Of a DNA stretch of 10,776 bases, positions 2,366 through 10,693 are shown piece after piece. The stretch is from Nitrospinota bacterium (GTDB lineage Bacteria; Nitrospinota; Nitrospinia; UBA9942; JAHJSF01): NCBI GenBank assembly GCA_018830405.1, contig JAHJSF010000085.1, forward strand, positions 1-10,776. The letters are read 5' to 3'. The notes under the pieces are model-generated. The model saw nothing but the letters and a program-made list of their open reading frames with translations. It made no database searches and was not told where the DNA came from. Within the stretch, counting starts at the first letter, position 1; each line of letters opens with the position of its first letter. A program made the position numbers and the translations under genes.

Positions 2366-2409
2366 ACAACCCCCTTATTCCCCCTTAACAAAGGGGGATA
2401 GGGGGTTGT
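2366..2409. repeat. C-rich dispersed palindrome, copy 1
   Basis: This is a two-tier hairpin. The outer arms ACAACCCCC (2366-2374) and GGGGGTTGT (2401-2409) pair over 9 bp. The inner arms CCCCCTT (2380-2386) and AAGGGGG (2391-2397) pair over 7 bp around the loop AACA. A related copy in opposite orientation is at 10617-10659, with the same inner stem and one decayed outer arm. It could end transcription or be a non-autonomous mobile palindrome; the sequence does not decide this. Confidence 0.8.
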
Positions 2410-2430: not shown

Positions 2431-2454
2431 AGCCAACGCAGTTAACGTTTGAAT
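2431..2454 (-). repeat. 24-bp intergenic repeat, copy 1
   Basis: Read on the minus strand, this matches 10266-10289 (plus strand) at 23 of 24 positions; the shared core includes TAACTGCGTTGGCT. Both copies lie in intergenic DNA close to C-rich palindromes, which suggests a family of dispersed intergenic repeats and not chance. Confidence 0.7.
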
Positions 2455-2522: not shown

Positions 2523-2690
2523 CCCCTTTCTTGCTCGTCCAAGAAAGGGGAAAAGAATACGCCGCCTGCTCATTTTCTTGACGGCTTGAAATAACGTCTC
2601 TTTAAAGCGCCTCAAAAACTCGCTCCGTTCAAACAGTTTGAGGCTTGTTTCTTTAAAGAGCCTATTCCAACCCTAAAAATGAGATGGCGG
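2523..2690 (+). repeat. structured ~168-nt element, copy A (plus orientation)
   Basis: Four helices can be drawn. P1 is a perfect 11-bp hairpin, CCCCTTTCTTG (2523-2533) with CAAGAAAGGGG (2540-2550), loop CTCGTC. P2 is CCGCC (2562-2566) with GGCGG (2686-2690), continued after a 2x2 internal loop by CTCATTTT (2569-2576) with AAAATGAG (2676-2683). P3 is CTCTTTAAAG (2598-2607) with CTTTAAAGAG (2651-2660). P4 is GCCTCAAA (2609-2616) with TTTGAGGC (2637-2644). Conserved unpaired blocks are ACGGCTTGAAATAACG and CCAACCCTAAAAAT. An inverted copy lies at 3587-3755, and the paired bases differ between copies in a compensating way. It could be a structured RNA or a non-autonomous mobile element; I do not recognise the family. 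Confidence 0.8.
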
Positions 2691-2808
2691 GAGAAAAAAT
2701 CGGTTGCCTTCGGCTCTTCATACGTTGGTTAAAATTTTTCACTGAAATACCTAAGGATTATAGACATCCACTCTCCCTTTAAAAATAAACACCGTATCCC
2801 AGAAATTC

Positions 2809-3528
2809 TTATCCTCTCATTCTTTTCGCCAATCTCTTCATAATTATTGCCTCCCTACTACCCCAAAAATCACGTTGTATCAGACACAGAGGAGCGTCCG
2901 GGCGCATTTGCGTGACATCAAAGGGGTATTTAGCTCTCTGGCTATCGACTTTGATGTAGGCAACTATGTTAGCAAGATAAAATCGGTAGTATCGTATACC
3001 ATCAATCCTTTCTGGAAAAGGATCCATTATCTTGGCCCATTTGCTAGGGTCATCAAATATGGCAAGAACCACACCAAAGAAGTCTGTTTCCCCTGGATTA
3101 TGGCTTAAGATTGCCTGACGTAGAACCTCTTGGTGGGAACCAAGATTCACTTTTTTAAACATAGAGTGGGATGATGCTGCAGACCTCCACAACATGGACA
3201 TGAAGAAGAGTTTGAGCTTAGCATAGTCAAAGCTCTTGTAGAAATAGGCCGCAGTTTCCTCTCCATCATTTAGAGGTTCTGCGTTCGGAAACTCGTGGAT
3301 AAGTAGATGACAAGCATAGTCGTCAAACTCTTGAAAAATGTGTTCTCCCTCAGCGGTCACAATGGTCTTATCATATACTCCAACTGGGGCTTTCTTCGGG
3401 TATTCGCCGGGAACATTGGAAAGAATCCTAAGGGAAGGGCTTGCCGTCTTGTCTATGAGATAGAAACTCTTAGGAATAACATGTGCCTTGACCCCTAGAC
3501 CTTCGATTCCTGTGAGTTTACATATCAT
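2809..3528 (-). CDS. orphan protein with HNH-like N-terminal motif, function unknown
   Basis: This protein of about 239 aa has no function I can assign. Its N-terminus, MICKLTG followed by AHVIPKSFY, resembles the start of HNH-type zinc-finger proteins, where a CxxC precedes an H-I-P-x-S/A-F segment. The cysteines are mostly absent: CKLTG has one Cys, and the later block IVTAEGEHIFQ stands where a second CxxC often lies. The middle (FFMSMLWRSAASS, then VNLGSHQEVLRQAI) looks like a conserved helical core of a group of uncharacterised proteins. There is no signal peptide or membrane helix. I chose the ATG at 3528-3526, since TAGGT lies about seven bases upstream and the motif begins at once. 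An in-frame ATG at 3543 would add five residues but lacks a ribosome site. The gene stands alone between cysE and ligA, flanked by inverted structured repeats, which suggests it was acquired as a unit. Nuclease activity is not supported. Confidence 0.75.
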   Translation of the reverse strand: MICKLTGIEGLGVKAHVIPKSFYLIDKTASPSLRILSNVPGEYPKKAPVGVYDKTIVTAEGEHIFQEFDDYACHLLIHEFPNAEPLNDGEETAAYFYKSFDYAKLKLFFMSMLWRSAASSHSMFKKVNLGSHQEVLRQAILSHNPGETDFFGVVLAIFDDPSKWAKIMDPFPERIDGIRYYRFYLANIVAYIKVDSQRAKYPFDVTQMRPDAPLCLIQRDFWGSREAIIMKRLAKRMRG

Positions 3529-3586
3529 TATGAAACCTAACATAGAAAGATTGTGTCAAAAAAACTAAGACTCCCATTCCCCAACT

Positions 3587-3755
3587 CCGCCATTTGATTT
3601 TTAGGATTGGGATAGGTTGGTTGAAGGGACAGCCTAAAACTGTCTGAGCGAAGCGAGTTTTTTAGGCGCCGAGACCAACCGTAATTTCAAGCCGTTTAAA
3701 AAATCAACAGGCGGTGTCTTCTTTGCTTCGTTTCTTGGACAAGCAAGAAATGAAG
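3587..3755 (-). repeat. structured ~169-nt element, copy B (minus orientation)
   Basis: On the minus strand this aligns along its whole length with 2523-2690. P1 pairs 3744-3750 with 3731-3737 (TTTCTTG/CAAGAAA, loop CTTGTC), extended past one A-C mismatch by CTTC/GAAG (3752-3755 with 3726-3729). P2 pairs 3710-3714 with 3587-3591 and 3699-3707 with 3594-3602. P3 pairs GGTTGG (3675-3680) with CCAACC (3615-3620). P4 pairs GCCTAAAA (3660-3667) with TTTTAGGC (3632-3639). The unpaired blocks ACGGCTTGAAATTACG and CCAATCCTAAAAAT are nearly unchanged from copy A while stems have changed on both sides. It lies 58 bases before the orphan gene's chosen start. Confidence 0.8.
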
Positions 3756-3771
3756 AAGAAAACATATTTCA

Positions 3772-3804
3772 AATCTCCCCTAACCCCTCTTTGCTAAAGA
3801 GGGG
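3772..3804 (+). repeat. 33-bp C-rich hairpin repeat, copy 1
   Basis: The hairpin CCCCTCTTT (3784-3792), loop GCT, AAAGAGGGG (3796-3804) is preceded by AATCTCCCCTAA. The 33 bp match the reverse complement of 10661-10693 at 32 positions. Both copies lie just beyond the 3' end of a minus-strand gene, here ligA, so they may help end transcription. The identity of the non-hairpin part shows they are copies of one repeat. Confidence 0.8.
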
Positions 3805-6062: not shown

Positions 6063-6126
6063 GCTCCCCTTGGCAAAAGGGGGGAAGGGAGAACTGCTCT
6101 TGCCCCTCCCTTCAGGGAGAGGCAAG
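6063..6126. repeat. tandem GC-rich hairpins
   Basis: There are two hairpins. The first uses CCCCTT and AAAGGGG near 6066-6082. The second pairs CTTGCC (6099-6104) with GGCAAG (6121-6126) and CTCCCT (6106-6111) with AGGGAG (6114-6119), with one mismatch and a 2-nt loop. They start 14 bases beyond the stop of the 121-aa gene. There is no T-tract, so this may be a dispersed palindromic repeat that slows or partly ends transcription between that gene and the DUF6485 gene. Confidence 0.65.
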
Positions 6127-7134: not shown

Positions 7135-7228
7135 TATGTAATTCTACTCTATAGTAGCGCTTTTAAGGTAAAAAATTTTCTCCATAAACCATTTAGCGGA
7201 TGTAGTAGAATGGAGGAAACAAAAAAAC

Positions 7229-7405
7229 TTTGTCCTAGTGTTTAGTTGCCTAAGTCTGCGTAGTATCAAGACCGAGAATTTGGCGCGACTGGCACGAAGA
7301 CAACCGCAGCCATAGCAGGGCCTATGGCGAGGATTGACGACAAAGCCGGGCGTGTCAAAGGCCGGTCGACTACAGCAAGATTTAGGCAATTAAGCACTAA
7401 CCAAG
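7229..7405. repeat. ~170-bp imperfect palindrome in the lptE/radA divergent spacer
   Basis: The outer arms 7237-7253 and 7382-7398 (starting AGTGTTTAG and ending AAGCACT) pair at 15 of 17 positions, or at all 17 if G-U pairs count. The centre is a hairpin GCCATAG (7309-7315), loop CAGGGC, CTATGGC (7322-7328). Between these the two halves still resemble each other as inverted copies, for example ACTAC and CGGTC blocks and the CAAA stretch, with indels. Weak pairing goes on outward to CTTTGT and CCAAG. No coding sense is seen. It looks like a miniature inverted-repeat element or other dispersed palindrome, and its right end touches the radA start codon. Confidence 0.75.
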
Positions 7406-10265: not shown

Positions 10266-10289
10266 ATTCAAACGCTAACTGCGTTGGCT
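10266..10289 (+). repeat. 24-bp intergenic repeat, copy 2
   Basis: This matches the reverse complement of 2431-2454 at 23 of 24 positions. In this copy AACGC (10271-10275) and GCGTT (10281-10285) form a small stem, and an outer stem CATTCAAA (10265-10272) with TTTGAATG (10297-10304) competes with it. It starts 11 bases after the ychF stop and might serve as a weak 3' end structure, without a T-tract. Confidence 0.7.
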
Positions 10290-10616: not shown

Positions 10617-10659
10617 ACAACCCCCTTAATCCCCCTTTGTTAAGGGGGAAGTCTGTTGT
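10617..10659. repeat. C-rich dispersed palindrome, copy 2
   Basis: The inner hairpin CCCCCTT (10631-10637), loop TGTT, AAGGGGG (10642-10648) and the left arm ACAACCCCC match the reverse complement of 2366-2409. The right outer arm has decayed (GTCTGTTGT). It lies between two convergent genes and could serve as a two-way terminator together with the next repeat. Confidence 0.75.
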
Positions 10660-10660
10660 G

Positions 10661-10693
10661 CCCCTCTTTAGCAAAGAGGGGTCAGGGGAGATT
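10661..10693 (-). repeat. 33-bp C-rich hairpin repeat, copy 2
   Basis: The stem CCCCTCTTT (10661-10669), loop AGC, AAAGAGGGG (10673-10681) with its flank is 32/33 identical, on the opposite strand, to 3772-3804. Its outer end overlaps the stop codon of the minus-strand gene at the right edge, so it lies directly at that gene's 3' end. Confidence 0.8.

Follow-up and report, generated by a model that had tools for sequence, protein, structure and literature searches.

Folded repeats facing each other around a gene in a Nitrospinota bacterium: candidate ends of small mobile cassettes with a predicted triple-stranded pseudoknot

The Locus and Its Repeat Family

The window is the whole stretch of DNA that was analysed, 10,776 nucleotides from a Nitrospinota bacterium. 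Two inverted copies of a folded repeat, A and B, lie 1.2 kb apart in the window and face each other around an open reading frame (ORF) of 244 amino acids (Table 1). A preliminary description of the window had placed and oriented both copies correctly, and the differences that it quoted between them in helices P1, P2 and P4 are found in the sequence; it was incomplete in treating A and B as separate copies rather than as facing ends round a gene. The enclosed ORF has no match in Pfam, NCBIfam or PADLOC. It weakly matches phrog_19960 and phrog_7075 (phage families of unknown function), its N-terminus appears HNH-like by eye only, and distant relatives are found on Agrobacterium and Megaera plasmids, with none confirmed among viral contigs. 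A single-sequence AlphaFold model of the protein was uninformative (pLDDT 31). This ORF is the sole gene enclosed by A and B, and a Y1 (HUH) transposase gene is absent from the unit.

Table 1. Features of the proposed unit and its two ends, in window positions
Feature	Position	Strand	Remark
Proposed cassette unit (end A, one ORF, end B)	2523..3755	.	P1 hairpins outward
Enclosed ORF, 244 aa	2809..3543	-	putative cargo
End A, full-length element	2523..2690	+ (P1-first)	probable folded strand -
P1 of A	arms 2523-2533 / 2540-2550	+	covarying helix; loop CTCGTC 2534-2539
Linker of A	2552..2557	+	AAAGAA; mirrors P1 purine strand AAGAAA; predicted third strand
Pseudoknot partner of A	2558..2561	+	TACG; pairs with loop bases 2536-2539; 3/4 pairs form
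Long arm of A	2562..2690	+	P2-P5, covarying helices
P2 of A	2562-2566/2686-2690 and 2569-2576/2676-2683	+	
P3 of A	2583-2592/2664-2673	+	
P4 of A	2598-2607/2651-2660	+	
P5 of A	2609-2616/2637-2644	+	
End B, full-length element	3587..3755	- (P1-first)	probable folded strand +
P1 of B	3727..3754	-	loop CTTGTC 3738-3743
Linker of B	3719..3724	-	AAAGAA
Pseudoknot partner of B	3715..3718	-	GACA; pairs with loop TGTC

Copies A and B are members of a repeat family with matches (blastn) at 41 places in the 1.42 Mb host assembly, including 29 full-length copies of about 165-178 nt, far more than chance would produce. Most host copies are solo and flanked by housekeeping genes, and divergent promoter regions are avoided (1/25). 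The host has three facing pairs in total: the window unit, a pair on contig C44 that encloses a lipoprotein-like and a membrane protein, and a pair on contig C119 that encloses a SIR2-like gene. Three genes that lie inward of host copies, on the P2 side, match defence models (SIR2, PD-T7-3 and PDC-S52), as against one weak match on the P1 side, and these are small numbers; left out of the counts were a desaturase-named model that matched on both sides, an LmuA match (E 2.4e-6) and a DpdA match on a tgt-like gene.

The family is widespread across phyla and consists of almost undescribed, folded DNA or RNA elements. Rfam 15 yields a tRNA as the sole match in the window at gathering score and no match at that score in seven host loci with copies, in agreement with the earlier view that the element was not a described one. 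A hit to a known Rfam family, which the preliminary description had named as evidence against its reading, does not occur in the host; a partial one, to TwoAYGGAY RNA (RF01731), occurs only in gammaproteobacterial relatives, where the model matches the interior arm of several elements at gathering score. The whole host genome has no TwoAYGGAY match even at E up to 10, and the TwoAYGGAY model, unlike the elements described here, has no end composed of P1, pseudoknot and linker. The 2010 description of TwoAYGGAY considered it a probable RNA that is not cis-regulatory. A search with model R1 in 39 relatives of the host's order or class found no matches, and a literature search for the P1 strings and for the concept found none in its scope, with figures and most subscription papers outside it. 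Descent from a phage or plasmid element was rejected, as blastn of copy A gave no matches and the core pattern occurred in 2 viral contigs only.

Several other repeats accompany the family. A separate family of short, G+C-rich palindromes (CCCCCTT..AAGGGGG type) occupies intergenic positions (window 2366-2409, 3772-3804, 6064-6084 and 10617-10693), and palindromes of similar form border several host copies immediately on their P1 side. Unrelated to the element is an inverted repeat pair of 24 nt with 96% complementarity (AGCCAACGCAGTTAACGTTTGAAT; window 2431-2454 / 10266-10289). The region at about 7226-7402 of the window resembles, by eye, the flank of a partial copy at another host locus (L013, after 1653; CCTATGGCGAGGATTGACGACAAAGCCG) and probably represents a further repeat family of the host's intergenic regions. 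A further palindromic element of about 130 nt (AGAGCGGCATAAATTTGTAG...TTTTTTCTGCCGCTCTG) is inserted in or beside family copies (L012 1426-1662, L010 101-212 and L013 near 1702). Elsewhere in the host, two small ORFs (76 and 75 aa; L019 228-682, minus strand) lie beside a partial and a full copy; by eye they resemble a DUF2283/DUF4258-type pair, and PADLOC finds no match.

Fold of the Element and Choice of Strand

Read from the P1 end, the element begins with the P1 hairpin, followed by the linker AAAGAA, a four-base pairing partner of the P1 loop, and a long arm (helices P2-P5) that closes at the element's exact other end (GGCGG). One fold fits the alignment of the 29 full-length host copies. 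Covariation was assessed over 56 named pairs, pseudoknot included, with shuffled partners as the control. Pairing is seen in 92.7% of cells (86.0% shuffled), 26 pairs are changed on both sides (13 shuffled), and 110 cells are double-changed (33 shuffled); when partners are slid by one column, pairing drops to 54%, with 7-11 double-changed pairs. The earlier proposal of selection on structure is thus borne out by covariation in the 29 copies. The P1-loop pseudoknot and the mirrored linker had been missed. Two blocks read as unpaired, ACGGCTTGAAATWACG and CCTAAAAAT, are in fact involved in helices: GGCTTGAAAT (2583-2592) pairs with ATTCCAACCC (2664-2673), and the remaining A-rich part of CCTAAAAAT falls in P2.

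The P1 loop, which had been described as kept, varies in other copies jointly with the bases after AAAGAA. Loop and partner combinations in the host alignment include CGTC/GACG, TGTC/GACA, TGCC/GGCA, GCGG/CCGC, GCAG/CTGC, GTGG/CCAC and CGGG/CCCG, and double changes are present in all four pseudoknot columns. Pairing of the pseudoknot helix reaches 72.7% in the alignment, a figure lowered in part by rows that are one base out of register; some copies pair incompletely. The covariation leaves both the helices and the pseudoknot well supported.

Mismatches within the helices are asymmetric between strands. Paired columns of the host copies contain 50 A.C mismatches versus 12 G.T, and P1 stems from other genomes contain 43 versus 10; the P1 stem of B itself has an A.C mismatch on the strand first described and a G.U on its complement. 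Because an A.C mismatch is a G.U pair on the complement, the folded strand is probably the complement of the P1-first strand, although strand-biased mutation could add to the excess of A.C over G.T. The Rfam matches to TwoAYGGAY fall on this same strand. The counts choose a strand and not a molecule, and so both alternatives of the preliminary description, RNA or single-stranded DNA, stand.

The orientation of this strand bears on a possible role as an RNA device, in which the folded strand would form the 3' part of outgoing transcripts and would stabilise them or bind a regulator such as CsrA. At both ends of a unit this strand is oriented outward, so that it would be included in cargo transcripts from either strand, and TwoAYGGAY shares an Rfam clan with RsmW, a small RNA of the CsrA/RsmA type. 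Against such a role, the folded strand in the host has no consistent sense orientation to neighbouring genes, GGA-type loops are absent from host copies on inspection, and the element borders have no conserved promoter or terminator. An RNA device is, on balance, an unlikely explanation.

Mirror Symmetry of the Linker and a Predicted Triple Helix

A search pattern composed of the P1 apex, AAAGAA and the pseudoknot was run on the genome collection and matched at least 119 stretches; among the matches listed are Flavobacteriaceae, Gammaproteobacteria, Selenomonadaceae, Desulfobacterota and a Spirochaetes metagenome-assembled genome. With the purine strand of P1 written as CA^mGA^n and the linker as A^pGA^q, p equals n in 92% of 371 distinct instances with a pseudoknot, and q equals m or m+1 in 99%. 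After thinning to 102 non-redundant instances, with one kept for each locus or genus and length type as the sole correction for phylogeny, both relations fit in 88%; across 2000 permutations the fit averaged 27% and never exceeded 44%. The search pattern put lower limits on p, q and m, from which the correlation could not arise. The Methylomonas elements have two stem types, each with its own linker type, and p equals n in 56/57 distinct instances.

The informative cases are those in which m and n differ (81 non-redundant, from several phyla). The linker is a mirror image of the P1 purine strand in 91% of these and a direct repeat of it in 1%; a third strand lying parallel to the purine strand needs the mirror form. 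Neither duplication nor inversion of a P1 arm yields a mirror image, and both were rejected as sources of the linker; the mirror therefore reads as the signature of a parallel third strand. Pairing of the linker with a T-rich 5' flank was likewise rejected, since by inspection the mirror is kept in other genomes that have no such flank. The evidence for the mirror relation is strong, and to our knowledge the relation is new.

The folded strand carries the linker as U^qCU^p, placed between P1 and the pseudoknot stem, and a spacer of near-fixed length (5-6 nt in 94%) connects it to the base of P1. This pattern predicts a triple-stranded pseudoknot in which the linker is the third strand. The pyrimidine linker would occupy the major groove of the hairpin, forming U.A-U and C+.G-C triples, while the hairpin loop would pair with upstream bases. 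Pseudoknots of the telomerase type have such an arrangement of linker and stem with U.A-U and C+.G-C triples. The likeness consists of a predicted U-rich linker in the major groove of an A-U-rich stem within an H-type pseudoknot; the differences are that the present structures lie at the ends of dispersed bacterial elements and that their physical triple helix is a prediction from covariation.

By itself, the mirror relation is compatible with both triplex motifs, and its source might instead be H-DNA in the duplex or, on the opposite strand, a DNA triplex of the purine motif. The A.C versus G.T counts favour the complement, where the linker consists of pyrimidines and has the same polarity as the purine strand, and make the purine-motif alternative improbable. 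If the pyrimidine-motif triple helix is real, the family would constitute a natural triple-helix pseudoknot represented by hundreds of distinct sequences, in which the covariation of base triples is directly readable.

Facing Pairs, Cargo, and Possible Mobility

The inverted arrangement of A and B that was first described is, in its convergent form around an ORF, one that the family shows repeatedly. Among 60 pairs of neighbouring elements separated by less than 6 kb in six Methylomonas genomes, 48 are convergent, 6 divergent and 6 same-direction, and other fetched loci have 16 convergent versus 3 divergent pairs by our own count. Mainly one or two genes of varied kinds lie between facing Methylomonas copies. 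At one intergenic locus, four Methylomonas species are empty (flanking matches 30-75 nt apart) and ten others hold facing ends around differing cargo, including PDC-S14 (G051), PDC-S19 (G040) and an EcoRV-type nuclease with its methylase (G067). Cargo elsewhere includes PDC-S20, PDC-S59 and DUF4145 proteins; all of these names are PADLOC and Pfam matches, and the defence roles are putative. Some units hold IS transposases, and a nif segment conserved in the genus sits between two copies, so not all enclosed genes are mobile.

The ends of this family resemble those of mobile cassettes because they often enclose, in facing pairs, one or two exchangeable genes, several of these being putative anti-phage defence genes. 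The reading that we favour, and consider probable, is that A and B are the structured facing ends of a small mobile gene cassette with one accessory gene, and that the window pair would move as a unit. Counted against this reading are the window's own unit, for which an empty site was not found, the predominance of solo copies and the mere three facing pairs in the host, and the resident nif segment and IS transposases enclosed elsewhere. The solo copies, the few facing pairs and the resident nif segment, together with the intergenic position of the host copies and their avoidance of divergent promoter regions, would suit solo, MITE-like structured insertions that enclose genes by chance or by tolerated insertion, the window pair then being a coincidence. 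Such an origin is unlikely given the excess of convergent over divergent close pairs and the differing cargo at one Methylomonas site. Alternatively, the facing ends may be resident and the cargo swapped by homologous recombination via the shared ends, without dedicated transposition. At the Methylomonas hotspot, the outer ends stay similar and the cargo differs between strains that are about 97% identical, as homologous recombination would have it; yet convergent pairing at many loci needs an origin, and the site empty in four species calls for at least one gain or loss of a whole unit. We regard recombination as a rather unlikely explanation.

Between strains of about 97% identity, the intergenic sequence was too diverged for the borders of an exact empty site to be read. 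Flank matches of 29 solo copies, a weak test because borders are uncertain, did not exceed those of mismatched pairs, giving no sign of a target-site duplication. The six Methylomonas genomes have no orientation bias relative to replication, which leaves a simple lagging-strand account without support.

Under the cassette reading, the 3' end of either strand of a unit would fold as the long arm plus hairpin. This folded end, as single-stranded DNA or RNA, would be the recognition target of an enzyme acting in trans, and the unit would move or exchange cargo without an enzyme of its own. The likeliest mobiliser would be a HUH transposase of the RAYT/TIRYT kind, the best candidate on the strength of Y1 proximity, enclosed RAYT-like genes and published TIRtrons. 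Y1 (HUH) transposase genes in five Methylomonas genomes lie within 1.5 kb of an element in 11/47 cases, as against 0.5 expected at random positions, and four Methylomonas units contain a RAYT-like protein or fragment. The RAYTs could instead be passengers rather than mobilisers. No protein recurs beside the elements across taxa, nor was an integrase seen there, and the single Y1 gene of the host lies in a 3.3 kb locus without an element. A broader and more tentative proposal is that the units form cross-phylum mobile cassettes, often with defence genes, defined by terminal triple-helix pseudoknots of which a dedicated enzyme reads one strand. We know of no end recognition via a triple-helix pseudoknot among described transposons or recombinases.

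Several known systems share features with these units. Mobile insertion cassettes and composite MITE-like units have inverted ends around passenger genes and, like the units here, no transposase of their own; the present ends, in contrast to plain inverted repeats of IS origin, are folds that are large and conserved, and no IS family was identified. Integron cassettes are small, interchangeable accessory genes adjoining a folded single-strand attC site, a likeness offset by the two facing ends per unit, the scatter across the chromosome and the lack of a neighbouring integrase here. REPs, REPINs and RAYTs are similarly intergenic, palindromic, often in inverted pairs and sporadic between species, and Y1 transposases are enriched near the present copies. 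REPs, however, are hairpins of 20-40 bp with a GTAG or CGTC tag (PMC3733652), whereas the ends here measure 165-300 nt and contain a pseudoknot.

In TIRtrons, a RAYT-like gene lies between long terminal inverted repeats, and these repeats form families, often as dimers (PMC3733652; PMC6006769). Resemblances to TIRtrons and TIRYTs include inverted repeat families in dimers or clusters beside HUH Y1 genes, some self-complementary repeats, and the RAYT-like gene enclosed in some Methylomonas units. The published account of TIRtrons (PMC3733652) describes a GGGGWSAS motif and, in contrast to the present elements, mentions neither a pseudoknot nor a triple helix, and no cargo for defence. The genes in most of the present units are of other kinds, and a transposase is missing from the host unit. 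If the cassette reading is true, repeats passed over as intergenic junk in several phyla would be the ends of cassettes that move or swap defence genes, facing pairs would provide a sequence handle for new defence candidates, and HUH transposases might be tied to large structured ends.

The Methylomonas elements vary further. Strains whose flanks are 98-99% identical (L190 and L191) carry, at one shared intergenic site, different elements that point in opposite directions. Many elements (L190-L209 and L261-L271) have a second hairpin outside P1 with its own loop pseudoknot (CTCGG/CCGAG, CCCGC/GCGGG, CGCGG/CCGCG and CTCGC/GCGAG), and these terminate in a TGTCGCTATCGCGACG palindrome. In several copies (L190, L192, L193, L199 and L206), a multi-hairpin domain of about 75-110 nt takes the place of the upper P1 stem, with the pseudoknot bases kept. 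On the folded strand, the arms of L190-L209 frequently have ANGGAN-type loops like those of CsrA/RsmA-binding RNAs, which host copies do not have.
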